This document shows positions 1 through 6,875 of a stretch of 35,411 nucleotides of DNA, piece by piece. The notes beneath the pieces were generated by a model that had not been told where the DNA came from, made no database searches, and saw only the letters and a program-made list of their open reading frames with translations. How positions within the stretch are numbered: the stretch's first letter is position 1; every line of letters begins with the position of its first letter. A program made the position numbers and the translations under genes. Source of the DNA: Pseudomonadota bacterium (lineage in GTDB: Bacteria > Pseudomonadota > Gammaproteobacteria > Pseudomonadales > Moraxellaceae); contig JAJZHP010000015.1 of assembly GCA_021804355.1 (NCBI GenBank), positions 1 to 35,411 on the forward strand. The letters run 5' to 3'.

Positions 1-1395
1 AAGATCCGATATCTTGGTCAGGTAGCCTGCCTCATTCAGGTGTTCGATGTTCGCAGTGGCGGCTACGCTTCGCAAGCAGCAGAGCTCCTAAATGACCGAG
101 ATTTGTGGGAACGTGTGGTCAATACTCTCTCCTGTTCCTGCCAGCAGGCCTGCCAAAAGTGCCTCTTGGGCTTCGATACGCGATTTGAGGCAGAGCGCTT
201 GGACCGCCTAGCAGCTCTCGACTGGGTGAATTCTGCCTGGCTGGATTTGCTGGCAGTACCAACAACCAATCAGGTGTTCGAGACTGGAACACAGGCCGAG
301 ACAGCGTCACTGCTGGAGGCCGTGGAGCGCGAGCTAGCCAAAGGCGTCTTTGAGGCTGTCGCCATTACGATGGCGGGCTCGCCTGACCAGTGGGATCTGG
401 CTAGGGCCCGCTATCTTCGCAATCGGCTCCATGCCTGGCGGACCCGCGGCTTAGCTGTTCACCTGCGGTTGCCCGCCGGTGTGCTGCTGTCGATCAGCGA
501 CTTGGACCGCCAGCATCTGGCTGCTCTGGCGCAGAGTGATGTGGCAGTGGAAACCCTCGATGTCACTGATCTCGCCAATGGATTCCGGCCAGTCATTGGC
601 TTGAAGACCGGCAACCGTTGCCTGACCTGGGCTAGTGACAACCTTGGTATGGTGATTCCCGATCGCTATTGGGGCACCCAGCCTGACGGCTACAAACTCC
701 TACGCGGAGACCTTATTTGGCAACACCCTCAACAGCGTCTTTCGGCAGAGTCTCTGACGCCACCTGTGCCAGAATGTGTCGTCGCCATCGAAATGCATCA
801 TGAGCTGGATGGTCAGCTACAGACCTTTGGCAAGCGGTTCTGGACTCACCTCGCCTCCCAGGTGCCTACCATTCAGCGCATCCTTAATGGCGAGGAGAAA
901 ATCGTCGAGATTACCTATGAGGATCGCTACGTTCGCAATCCGGCTACGGCAGCGACAGTGATGCTCGTTCTATATGAGGCTGCACGCTTGGGAGGCCCCG
1001 TGAAGTCGCCCAGCATTTTGGTCCGAGGTATTGCCTTCCACCGTGATGACAATCGCAGCCAGTACCAGTGCTGGCACGACTGGCAAGATGAACAGGCCCG
1101 AGATGTGGCAATCCAGGCAGCTTTCGAATATTGCGGACTGAAGGCCGCGGTGAAGAGCCAGCCGGCGCTACCCCATGGCCGGACACTGACGCTCAAGCTC
1201 GAATCAGGTTGCAGCCTGACTATTCAGCTAGATCAGGGATTCTCCTACTGGGAAGTGGTGTCGGACTCGCGCCAGCGGCAGGTGTCTACCTTCAAATTCC
1301 ATGCAAAGGAGATAGGCAAGGAGTTGGCGGAACTTCGAATTAATCTCAAGGGTCAGGACGACACCCCAACACAGATATATGTGAAACGGCAGTAA
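1..1395 (+). CDS. C-terminal part of a large helicase-like protein (5' end outside window)
   Basis: The frame is open from base 1, so this is the last ~464 residues of a longer protein. The GTG at 40 is only an internal codon. Near the start there is a Cys cluster of the form CxC-x3-C-x2-C (about 133-162) followed by CLLGFDTRFEAERLDRLAAL. Such a cluster resembles the zinc-binding end (MZB/DUF1998-like) of large DEAD/DEAH helicases in defence and DNA-modification islands. Further motifs are ITYEDRYVRNP (about 907-940) and, near the end, HGRTLTLKLESG then LDQGFSYW. From memory these recall the tail of DpdJ-type helicases of the 7-deazapurine DNA-modification clusters, but I cannot confirm this without a search. 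The helicase motor domains would lie to the left of the window. The gene looks GC-richer than the core genes and abuts the 3' end of guaA, an island integration site, so horizontal acquisition is likely. A helicase or defence role is inference. Confidence 0.55.
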   Translation, partial: KIRYLGQVACLIQVFDVRSGGYASQAAELLNDRDLWERVVNTLSCSCQQACQKCLLGFDTRFEAERLDRLAALDWVNSAWLDLLAVPTTNQVFETGTQAETASLLEAVERELAKGVFEAVAITMAGSPDQWDLARARYLRNRLHAWRTRGLAVHLRLPAGVLLSISDLDRQHLAALAQSDVAVETLDVTDLANGFRPVIGLKTGNRCLTWASDNLGMVIPDRYWGTQPDGYKLLRGDLIWQHPQQRLSAESLTPPVPECVVAIEMHHELDGQLQTFGKRFWTHLASQVPTIQRILNGEEKIVEITYEDRYVRNPATAATVMLVLYEAARLGGPVKSPSILVRGIAFHRDDNRSQYQCWHDWQDEQARDVAIQAAFEYCGLKAAVKSQPALPHGRTLTLKLESGCSLTIQLDQGFSYWEVVSDSRQRQVSTFKFHAKEIGKELAELRINLKGQDDTPTQIYVKRQ

Positions 1396-1410
1396 ACGAC
1401 TGTCGTCGTT
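1395..1410 (+). terminator. Small hairpin just after the helicase-like gene
   Basis: AACGAC (1395-1400) and GTCGTT (1405-1410) pair around a 4-base loop, overlapping the stop codon of the upstream gene. No T-run follows, so terminator activity is uncertain. Confidence 0.25.
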
Positions 1411-1474
1411 GTGCCCATCAACCCATTAAGTGGACACTATTTTCACGGCCTTAGGTAAGGCTCCAGCGATCGCG

Positions 1475-1541
1475 GTAGGAATGGGCATTACTGCCCACCC
1501 CCCGCACAGATCCGTACGTGCAGCATTACCGCATACGGCTC
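1475..1541 (-). mobile_element. 3' end of a group II intron (domains V and VI), remnant
   Basis: On the minus strand, 1541 to 1509 reads GAGCCGTATGCGG then TGCTGCACGTACGGATC. This is very close to bacterial group II intron domain V (GAGCCGUAU...GUACGGUUC): the lower helix pairs, with an AC bulge on the 3' side. It has one G-A mismatch where the family usually has G-U. A second hairpin follows at about 1503-1475: TGGGCA and TGCCCA around a GTAA loop, extended by GGGG/TTCC, then CTAC. This fits domain VI and a 3' intron end. No bulged branch-point A is evident, as in some hydrolytic (class C-like) introns. No reverse transcriptase or domains I-IV are seen between here and guaA (only 77 bases), so this is a truncated copy. 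It has the same orientation as guaA, just downstream of its stop; class C introns favour such sites after terminators. Confidence 0.6.
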
Positions 1542-1618
1542 CTGCCTGCCGTTGATTGAGTAGTTGTAGCGGAATGAGAATGCTCCGGCCCGTGTGACAG
1601 CCATTGCCAGACGTGTGA

Positions 1619-3196
1619 TCATTCCCACTCAATAGTTGCCGGGGGCTTGGAGGAGACATCATAAGTCACCCGGGAGACCCCATCTATCTCATTGATGATG
1701 CGATTGGAGACCAATTCAAGCAGCTCATAGGGTAAATGCGCCCACCTAGCTGTCATAAAATCAATGGTTTCCACGGCGCGTAGTGCAATCACCCACGCAT
1801 AACGACGTGCATCGCCTACCACACCGACAGAACGTACAGGCAGGAATACAGCGAAGGCCTGGCTGGTTTTATGGTACCAACCCGCCTTGTGCAGCTCTTC
1901 CAAAAAAATATCATCTGCTTTACGCAGCACCTCGGCATATTCGCGTTTGACCTCACCCAGAATACGCACGCCCAGACCTGGTCCTGGAAAGGGGTGACGA
2001 TGCACCATATCATAAGGCAAACCCAAGGCCAGCCCCAGACGCCGTACTTCATCCTTAAATAGCTCGCGTAGCGGCTCAACCAGTTTTAGCTTCATGGTCT
2101 CAGGTAGTCCACCCACATTGTGATGCGACTTGATGACATGAGCCTTACCGGTTTTGCTAGCTGCCGATTCGATAACATCCGGATAAATGGTGCCTTGCGC
2201 CAGCCAGCGTACATCACTCAATTTGGCAGCTTCTGCATCAAATACTTCAATAAAAGTACGACCTATAATTTTGCGCTTGGCCTCGGGATCTGATACCCCC
2301 TCCAAACGCTGCAAGAATAGATCTGCGGCATCCACCCTGACCACGCGCACGCCCATATGCTGGGCAAACATGGCCATGACATGATCACCTTCATGCAAAC
2401 GCAGTAGCCCGTTATCCACAAAAACACAGGTCAGACGATCACCGATAGCGCGATGCAACAAGGCTGCCACCACCGAGGAGTCCACACCGCCTGATAGTCC
2501 CAGCAAAACTTGATCTTCGCCCAGACGTGCACGCAATGACGAGACCGACTCTTCTATGATGTTCTCTGCCGTCCATAAGGCATCACAAGCACATACCTGA
2601 TGCACAAAACGTTCAAGCAAACGCATACCTTGGCTGGTATGCGTTACTTCAGGATGAAATTGTACCCCATACCAGCGCCTCTGCTCATCACTCATGGCAG
2701 CAACGGGACACGTAGACGTCGATGCCGTCGCTTTGAATCCCGGCGGCAGGCTAGTCACCTGATCACCATGACTCATCCAGACATCGAGCAGTGCTACACC
2801 CTGATCATCAACACGATCTTCAATACCCTGGAGCCAGTTATCGGGAGCCTTGATCTGCACGGCTGCATAGCCAAATTCACGCTTTTCACAGGACTGCACC
2901 CTGCCCCCAAGCTGTTGCGCCATGGTTTGCATACCATAACAAATGCCTAGCAGCGGAACACCTGCCGTAAAAACAGCCTCAGGCGCACGCGGAGTATCCT
3001 GCAGAGTCACCGATTCCGGGCCTCCTGAGAGGATAATACCGCGAGGAGCAAAATCTTTGATTTCCTGTTCAGACATATCAAATGCCCTCAACTCACAGTA
3101 AACCCCCAACTCACGCACGCGTCGTGCAATCAATTGGGAATACTGTGAGCCAAAATCCAAAATCAGAATTTTGTGGGCATGAATATCAAGTGTCAT
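1619..3196 (-). CDS. guaA: GMP synthase (glutamine-hydrolysing)
   Basis: Makes GMP from XMP, glutamine and ATP in the cytoplasm, the last step of guanine nucleotide synthesis. The N-terminal class I glutamine amidotransferase domain shows [17 protein letters not shown], the nucleophile region GICYGMQ and the His/Glu of FHPEVTH. The ATP pyrophosphatase domain follows with the P-loop [17 protein letters not shown], then the dimerisation domain ending in TIEWE. An open frame extends to a GTG at 3211. I chose the ATG at 3196 because it gives 525 residues, as in E. coli, and leaves 7 bases after the preceding small ORF. It is the last gene of the guaB - small ORF - guaA operon. Its 3' end (GAGTGGGAATGA at 1619-1630) is the conserved segment used as an attachment site by many genomic islands, and foreign-looking DNA lies directly beyond it. 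Confidence 0.97.
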
Positions 3197-3203
3197 AACG
3201 TGC

Positions 3204-3350
3204 TCATTCACGGGATTGAGGAGGAAGGAAAGTCGAAGATGACTGACGGTTCCTGGCCATCAGCCAGACCAAGCCTACATGGCTGGCCACGACCAGCAAG
3301 ACCACGAGCAGCAGTGCCCACCAGCCATAGTTCAACAAGAAATCCAGCAT
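3204..3350 (-). CDS. Small single-span membrane protein between guaB and guaA
   Basis: A 48-codon frame starts with ATG at 3350, two bases after the guaB stop (TAA GT ATG), and ends in TGA at 3206-3204, seven bases before the guaA ATG. It fills the guaB-guaA gap exactly. A GGGG run in the end of guaB lies at Shine-Dalgarno distance. The product begins [11 protein letters not shown], followed by a strongly hydrophobic stretch ([19 protein letters not shown]) of about 20-23 residues. It ends in a short polar tail with Arg and Ser (ARNRQSSS...PPQSRE), suggesting N-terminus out, C-terminus in. No known family is recognised. Placement, start context and a clean transmembrane segment support a real gene. 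Its function is unknown; a role near purine synthesis is only suggested by position. Confidence 0.6.
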
Positions 3351-3352
3351 AC

Positions 3353-4885
<1,533 letters not shown>

Positions 4886-4899
4886 CGCAATCACGATGG

Positions 4900-6828
4900 C
4901 TACCCGTGATCAGGCGGCACCTCCGCACTGCAATGATGGTCCATGGCAGGTCGCAGCACACTTAAATCCGGACTGTTACGGTAGGGGTCATCGGGAATAT
5001 ATCCAACATTCAGGACACCCCAGTCATACAACATGCATACCGTATTGGCCAGTACAGGCGTGGGGACGGGGTCACCACCCTGACGCCAGTCTTTAGCCTG
5101 AAGCTCAAATATGGTTTTCCTCAAGCCTTGCGGAAAGGCTTTGACATGATCAAATAAATCACGATAAAAACCGGAGTGATAGTCGGCTTGCTCCATATAC
5201 GGCATGGCTTCAATGGCCGTGTAATCAAACTCAGCCAGCGATGACTCTAGCGACTGGGCATACCATGTTTCAGCTTTTTTATGCAGCACCACCTGAGCAT
5301 ATAGATTACGCGCCGTCAGCAACCCGGGATGATCAGCACGCAACCGCCGCGCCATGTTCAGAGCCAAGTTATCCAGCGCATCCGTCTTTAACAACGTCCA
5401 CATGGACAGCCATTCAGGATGCAGCCGGATTTCAGCCACGCTACCAGGCATCCCCCAAGACTGATAACTCAATCGGGCAAACGTGCTGTCGTCCTCAAAA
5501 TCAGACAAGGTAATGTCATCATGAAATAAGACGCCATTGAAATAGGCATGGCGCCCTAAATCAGTATACATATCCCTGATGACGCCTTTAGCCAAAGAAG
5601 AAAAGGGTGACAACCTAGGATACCCGGTTGCCACATAATTAGGTTTGTTGGGTAAAGTGACCACCACATCCTGAGCTGCCCGATCACTTTGTGGAAGTTG
5701 CCATGCCAGTAAGGGCATCCAGGCATAGACATGCCTGACCTGGGTGAGTTGCCTGATCGACCAGGCCACATGATTGAACAGATCCTGCCTGACCGGGAGG
5801 TGATGATTAGGAAAATACACAGCATCCGCAGCACCATTGCCATCGGGGTCGGCAAAAGCCTGCAGGTACACCGTATTGACATCACTGTCGCGTACCCGTT
5901 GCAACAATTTTTGCAGATTGCTGGCCTCCTGAGCAGGATTGGCATCATAAACATAGTCGAGATTGACATGCATGACACGAACAGGCCCATGCCTACTCGT
6001 CTTCTCATCAACCTGCATATCATGCTCAAGCTGCCAAGGGGAGATGCCGTTATCCACGATATGCTGCAAAATACGACGTTTCCCACGCGCATCCAGCAAA
6101 CCCTCATGCCCTAAACCCAGGCTAAGCCCTAAGCTTGCAGCGATCTGCGTGCACACTTCATTGAAATCACCACCAGGCCACATGATGATATGGGGATGTA
6201 GCCCCAGCCGCTGCTCAAAAAGCTGCTTACTTCGTTGTAAGTCATCATAAATCCTTGCCCGGTAAGCTTTCTCGGATTCATATCCTGCCTGACGGCCCAA
6301 CCAGGCTCGTGTCGTTGCTGCAGGCTGCCTATCTCCTTGCGGATCCCCAGGCAGCGGCATATCCAGTTTATCTCCCTCCACGGCCAAACTTACCATAGGA
6401 TCTTTAGCCAGCTCTTCAATATCCGTCCAACTTAAGTAACGCCTGTCATGATCCCTTAACTGATGACCTACCACACCTACCACGGCAGGCACATGCAGCA
6501 CATGCAAGATGGGCAATACTTCATGCATAAACAAGGGGCCGGGAGCATCAAAGCAAACAATGACTACCTTGCTAGGATGCGCAGCAGCCTGCTTGTCATT
6601 CCAAGCATCCCATCGTTTGAATAAATAACCGTTATTTTTTAATTCATTCAACTGCCGTAGTAACAGGGTGGGACTCACCCCCTGACCGGAGGCTGATGGC
6701 TGAGATATGGCTGAAATTTGTGGGTAACGCAAGACCAAAGGTTCAGCCCCTGCTGTCCGTGCAGACAAACCCAAAATCACAAGACACCCCAGGCAGAGCT
6801 GATAATAGATAGTTGATAAAGTCATCAT
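4900..6828 (-). CDS. PgaB-like exported protein: degenerate polysaccharide deacetylase plus GH153-type domain
   Basis: The architecture is that of PgaB/IcaB-type poly-beta-1,6-N-acetylglucosamine processing enzymes: signal peptide (cleavage probably after ARTAGA), a CE4 NodB-like domain (about 30-270) and a C-terminal glycoside hydrolase domain (about 285-620). The C-terminal half is well kept: VNLDYVYDANPAQEASNL, TVYLQAFADPDGNGAADA, YAWMPLLAW and FHDDITLSDFED. The N-terminal half looks inactive. The usual FDD is FDA (VIVCFDAPG), losing a metal-binding Asp, and the region where family members carry SHxxxxH reads SLAVEGDKLDM with no His. Deacetylation is therefore doubtful while glycan cleavage or binding may persist. 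Only TTG precedes at 6837; the ATG at 6828 is preferred (642 residues). No pgaA, pgaC or pgaD lies nearby. It sits upstream of guaB in the same direction, with its own promoter region near the DUF4124 gene. Confidence 0.8.
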   Translation of the reverse strand: MMTLSTIYYQLCLGCLVILGLSARTAGAEPLVLRYPQISAISQPSASGQGVSPTLLLRQLNELKNNGYLFKRWDAWNDKQAAAHPSKVVIVCFDAPGPLFMHEVLPILHVLHVPAVVGVVGHQLRDHDRRYLSWTDIEELAKDPMVSLAVEGDKLDMPLPGDPQGDRQPAATTRAWLGRQAGYESEKAYRARIYDDLQRSKQLFEQRLGLHPHIIMWPGGDFNEVCTQIAASLGLSLGLGHEGLLDARGKRRILQHIVDNGISPWQLEHDMQVDEKTSRHGPVRVMHVNLDYVYDANPAQEASNLQKLLQRVRDSDVNTVYLQAFADPDGNGAADAVYFPNHHLPVRQDLFNHVAWSIRQLTQVRHVYAWMPLLAWQLPQSDRAAQDVVVTLPNKPNYVATGYPRLSPFSSLAKGVIRDMYTDLGRHAYFNGVLFHDDITLSDFEDDSTFARLSYQSWGMPGSVAEIRLHPEWLSMWTLLKTDALDNLALNMARRLRADHPGLLTARNLYAQVVLHKKAETWYAQSLESSLAEFDYTAIEAMPYMEQADYHSGFYRDLFDHVKAFPQGLRKTIFELQAKDWRQGGDPVPTPVLANTVCMLYDWGVLNVGYIPDDPYRNSPDLSVLRPAMDHHCSAEVPPDHG

Positions 6829-6875
6829 GCAGTCCAAGGTAGGCGTATCGCTTCGCTAGCGTCAAGTGAAAATCT

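Follow-up and report, generated by a model that had tools for sequence, protein, structure and literature searches.

The gap between guaB and guaA in the window (the whole stretch of 35,411 nucleotides analyzed) holds a 48-codon ORF which, judged from its sequence and that of its relatives, looks like a real, lineage-restricted gene for a small membrane protein. With moderate confidence, we regard it as a coding gene for a single-pass inner-membrane protein, coupled to GuaB, with a helix that likely assists or regulates a larger membrane protein. The ORF is found at the same place in six genomes of the family, and nucleotide changes among its copies spare the amino acid sequence.

Organization of the guaB-guaA region

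In the first-pass annotation the ORF, whose strand was not given, had been described as filling the operon gap precisely. This is borne out. The ORF lies on the minus strand, starts at 3350, 2 nt past the guaB stop codon (which ends at 3353), stops 7 nt before the guaA ATG, and specifies a product of 48 aa. The features of the region are:

1619..3196, minus strand: guaA (GMP synthase), ATG start at 3196
3194..3206, minus strand: ORF stop, 7-nt spacer and guaA ATG, without a clear Shine-Dalgarno sequence before guaA
3204..3350, minus strand, stop included: 48-codon ORF for a predicted single-pass membrane microprotein, with ATG start and in-frame purifying selection
3255..3323, minus strand: hydrophobic helix, residues 10-32 of the ORF, from hydropathy; predicted helix 2-38
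3261..3293, minus strand: conserved part of the helix, with the pattern V-V-x-(S/T)-H-x-(G/L)-L-V-x-L at residues 20-30, from alignment A2 (6 sequences)
3351..3355, minus strand: guaB stop codon with the 2 nt that precede the ORF ATG, a putative stop/start coupling junction, from spacing comparison
3353..4831, minus strand: guaB (IMP dehydrogenase); relatives suggest the ATG at 4819 as start

The longest possible guaA ORF begins at a GTG at 3211 and overlaps the small ORF by 8 nt; the ATG at 3196 is taken as the start because the guaA starts of relatives align with it. The order guaB then guaA, in the same direction, is that of the ordinary guaBA operon, in which the two genes are separated by a short or overlapping spacer; in the genus of the window the spacer is instead a coding gene.

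A gene on the minus strand (window 4900-6837), which we take from its sequence type to be a PgaB-like deacetylase, lies between xseA and guaB; in G067 (locus L080) xseA adjoins guaB, with no PgaB-like gene in between. Just past the 3' end of guaA, on the plus strand (43-1395), resides the C-terminal part of a DruE3-like protein of the Druantia defence system (PADLOC E 3.7e-84), the gene running off the contig edge. A match to the Rfam group II intron RF00029 (47.2 bits; 1469-1543, minus strand) falls in the interval separating the 3' end of guaA from the DruE gene. As guaA is mentioned in papers on integrated elements, this region may be an island boundary.

Evidence for coding

Besides the genome of the window, the set contains a single genome of this genus, G001, in which the ORF is intact and has the same length, the same spacings and 83% identity. 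The window copy (G000) and the G001 copy differ at 22 nucleotides within the ORF, and only 8 of 48 residues are changed, against 14.1 expected when the same nucleotide changes are placed at random in the ORF (permutation test, p = 0.0019); 61% of the permuted versions gain an internal stop. The dN/dS ratio between the two genomes is about 0.18 for the ORF, 0.007 for guaB and 0.033 for guaA. The ORF shows the synonymous bias of a protein-coding frame and is constrained, but is evolving much faster than the GuaB and GuaA enzymes.

Copies found in a second genus, g13, behave similarly. The dN/dS ratio ranges from about 0.07 to 0.36 in the five pairs for which dS is finite; the remaining pair, G073/G092, is saturated at synonymous sites. 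The permutation p is 0.028 or less in all six pairs. Across genera, three of four permutation comparisons give weak results (p = 0.06, 0.30, 0.007 and 0.33 for the four), and homology at this distance therefore rests on position, motif and profile score. On the sense strand the signal is confined to the frame of the ORF. One antisense frame is also low in change (p = 0.0012 for G000/G001, 0.0078 for G026/G092, 0.046 for G073/G092); this frame holds three and two stops in G000 and G001, respectively, and its signal is read as the mirror of third-position change. Comparison of guaB-guaA gaps and dN/dS ratios among relatives, the check set in the first-pass annotation, showed that close relatives retain both the frame and the helix, and that purifying selection acts on the ORF.

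Distribution among genomes

The 3' side of guaB was compared in 41 stretches, the window and 40 loci. Both guaB and guaA are visible in 37 of these, guaA falling outside the stretch in G088, G023, G007 and G062. The ORF resides 2 nt after guaB in five of the 37 gaps (G000, G001, and G026, G067 and G073 of genus g13), and is missing from the other 32. A profile made from these five copies (alignment A1) was run on 348 genomes of the family, and matched six at E up to 0.001. The sixth copy, in G092 (E 2.2e-21), was detected by the whole-genome profile and not by position; it also sits between guaB and guaA, 4 nt after guaB, the spacing being 2 nt in the five other copies. The ORF is hence carried by four of nine g13 genomes (G026, G067, G073, G092). 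It is absent from the visible guaB-guaA gaps of G013 and G084, and from the 120 bases between guaB and the contig end in G088; the profile search was negative at E 0.001 in G058, which is cut inside guaB, and in G079, in which guaB was not found and the profile gave a weak match only (E 0.064). A contig scan returned the single locus L009 (JABEVH010000054.1), probably the same record as G001 and not counted as a further genome.

At the order level, 14 of 390 genomes matched at E up to 0.01, namely the genome of the window and 13 with weak, partial matches; translations of seven of the 13 were read, and in none does a protein of suitable length carry the motif. At the class level, four of 369 genomes matched at E up to 0.005, again the own genome plus three weak matches; in the two of these three translations that were read the motif is not in a small protein. 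No credible match was thus seen beyond the family in the sampled order and class genomes, nine of the 16 weak matches having been read, and no relative of the ORF was found in 46 pattern stretches of viral contigs. With matches in only six of the 348 genomes of the family, and a loss in at least one relative, the ORF is not a general part of purine operons.

Repeat-like, partly self-complementary sequences occupy the guaB-guaA gaps of G004, G030, G012 and G061, and are found 3' of guaB in G088 (loci L027, L032, L033, L035 and L042); at this place other genera have the ORF or nothing. These sequences look like dispersed repeats.

In a tree of concatenated guaB and guaA the genus of the window (g1) groups with g3 (ultrafast bootstrap 100), and g13 is placed elsewhere, the deeper branches being poorly supported. 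As the ORF is missing in g3 and g5, it is either ancestral, with several losses, or has moved between g1 and g13. At least one loss, by clean deletion, is visible: in G084, which the tree places as sister to G092, the ORF is deleted, and both the end of guaB and the hairpin described below, which lies downstream, are retained. Missing from most of the family, and deleted in G084, the ORF is dispensable.

Features of the predicted protein

A single strong transmembrane helix had been proposed for the ORF product, and predictions agree. The maximum Kyte-Doolittle mean over 19 residues is 2.64, and the AlphaFold2 single-sequence model is one helix spanning residues 2-38 (mean pLDDT 84.1); with no more than about 50 residues, the product thus has one predicted transmembrane helix. 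The positive C-terminal side, also proposed, is weak: residues from 29 to the end carry a net charge of +2 in the window copy, the values for the six copies being +2, +1, +2, 0, 0 and +1.

Eight residues are invariant in all six copies (M1, W10, V20, V21, H24, L27, V28 and L30; alignment A2). Six of the seven invariant residues after M1 fall, within 70 degrees, on one face of the helix centred near H24. The helical periodicity of conservation, measured as a moment over six sequences, is only suggestive (p = 0.09). The C-terminal tail is variable, and is the least conserved part of the protein.

Expression signals and probable coupling

The start context noted in the first-pass annotation is present, but moderate in strength. 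In the genus of the window the anti-Shine-Dalgarno duplex upstream of the ORF has -6.2 kcal/mol, a value reached by 9.3% of 3000 random window positions; in g13 it has -2.2. The duplex before guaA is -2.4 kcal/mol in the genus of the window, where 49% of random positions reach this value, and -3.3 to -3.5 in g13. In the window's genus guaA may need coupling to the ORF for its translation. In g13 the ORF and guaA are separated by 48-88 nt containing a GC-rich hairpin; the constant association of the ORF is thus with guaB and not with guaA. From the spacing, the microprotein is probably made in step with GuaB, via stop/start coupling.

In g13 the hairpin and the T-rich stretch after it (together ACGGGGC..GCCCCGTTCG) precede guaA, and they are kept in G084 despite the loss of the ORF; the loci with the hairpin 5' of guaA are L028, L039, L041, L076 and L040. 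The hairpin is terminator-like, and could lower guaA relative to guaB. Scans of the 1300-5200 interval of the window gave five promoters versus 4.1 in shuffles and one terminator versus 3.4, with no clear excess of either.

Relation to known families and systems

The microprotein belongs to none of the Pfam, NCBIfam or PDB families searched. The Pfam families DUF4381 (18.5 bits, curated cut-off 27.2) and Phage_holin_3_6 (16.8 bits, curated cut-off 28.4) resemble it in the aligned hydrophobic helix, but were matched by only one and two of the six members, respectively, and below the cut-offs. In NCBIfam the best score of the window protein is 12.7 bits versus a cut-off of 80, and the best E over all six members is 0.026, none exceeding the cut-off; no PDB chain matched below E 0.34, and PADLOC gave nothing above cut-off for the microprotein. 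Nothing in the titles and abstract openings of open-licence papers on IMP dehydrogenase, on guaB/guaA or on small ORFs in operons describes this ORF.

KdpF and MgtS are small single-pass inner-membrane regulators in E. coli and, as AcrZ, have about 50 residues or fewer. The ORF product is similar to the three proteins in size and in the single predicted helix, but no sequence relation to a named family was found, and its gene follows guaB instead of lying beside a transporter. Small single-helix inner-membrane regulators, such as E. coli AcrZ, the partner of AcrB, are often overlooked in annotation, according to two papers (PMC7267776, PMC11539335). The ORF product is rated as a lineage-specific small membrane protein, a kind already known.

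Proposed role and alternative explanations

The ORF would encode a single-pass inner-membrane protein of 45-51 residues. Ribosomes finishing guaB would restart 2-4 nt further on and, in the genus of the window, finish 7 nt short of guaA. The helix would pack in the membrane against a postulated larger membrane protein, as an accessory or regulatory helix, through a face carrying W10, V20/V21, H24 and L27/V28. By analogy with AcrZ-like regulators, an accessory part of this kind seems its likeliest function.

The same gene arrangement might be explained by a coupling or leader peptide, the act of translation carrying ribosomes from guaB to guaA and the amino acid sequence being irrelevant. The ORF bridges the gap with spacers of 2 and 7 nt in the window's genus, where guaA lacks a clear Shine-Dalgarno sequence, and guaA begins right at the guaB end in five genomes without the ORF (G003, G017, G028, G075, G081). 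Yet the sequence is not free to vary, and selection at the amino acid level disfavours a pure leader peptide; the long spacer and hairpin of g13, moreover, leave no coupling to guaA in that genus, and we regard this explanation as unlikely. A chance ORF within an intergenic spacer is very improbable: purifying selection in the frame of the ORF and a conserved position in six genomes stand against its shortness, the weak Shine-Dalgarno sequence in g13 and its absence from most relatives, and the substitution pattern contradicts it. Hardly credible, too, is a programmed frameshift or readthrough by which GuaB would gain the helix as a C-terminal membrane anchor. The ORF starts 2 nt past guaB, and its reading frame continues without a stop for a number of codons 5' of the ATG (63 aa open), but each of the six copies begins with an ATG of its own where the N-termini align, and the frame relative to guaB is not constant, the change from +2 in five copies to +4, another frame, in G092 arguing against a programmed fusion.

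Alternatively, the protein might anchor GuaB (IMP dehydrogenase) to the membrane or regulate it, its C-terminal tail lying in the cytoplasm. This fits the location of the ORF immediately after guaB in all six copies and the hairpin which separates it from guaA in g13; genes so tightly coupled often act together. The tail, however, is the part able to touch GuaB and the least conserved one, and nearly all relatives have guaB without the ORF. Neither speculation of the first-pass annotation, a tie between GMP synthesis and the membrane or regulation of a transporter, finds specific support here. Three GuaB/GuaA columns track the presence of the ORF, no more than the 0-28 seen in nine control pairings of arbitrary clades, a weak test. 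A GuaB tether is in our judgement quite improbable, and we prefer the accessory or regulatory helix described above.

Significance

The small protein, produced by stop/start coupling at a constant ratio to GuaB, could bind this enzyme or a purine transporter and so link guanine-nucleotide synthesis to the inner membrane; we give this a low probability. Membrane-borne control of GMP synthesis is not described in the titles and abstract openings of the open-licence literature searched. If the microprotein touches GuaB or a purine transporter, GTP supply would be subject to a new layer of control; if it does not, it would be one more lineage-restricted small membrane protein on a housekeeping operon. 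Either way it adds an apparently unclassified microprotein family, supported by selection, within a core metabolic operon, and microprotein genes of this sort can be recognized by combining sequence and gene-order comparison.
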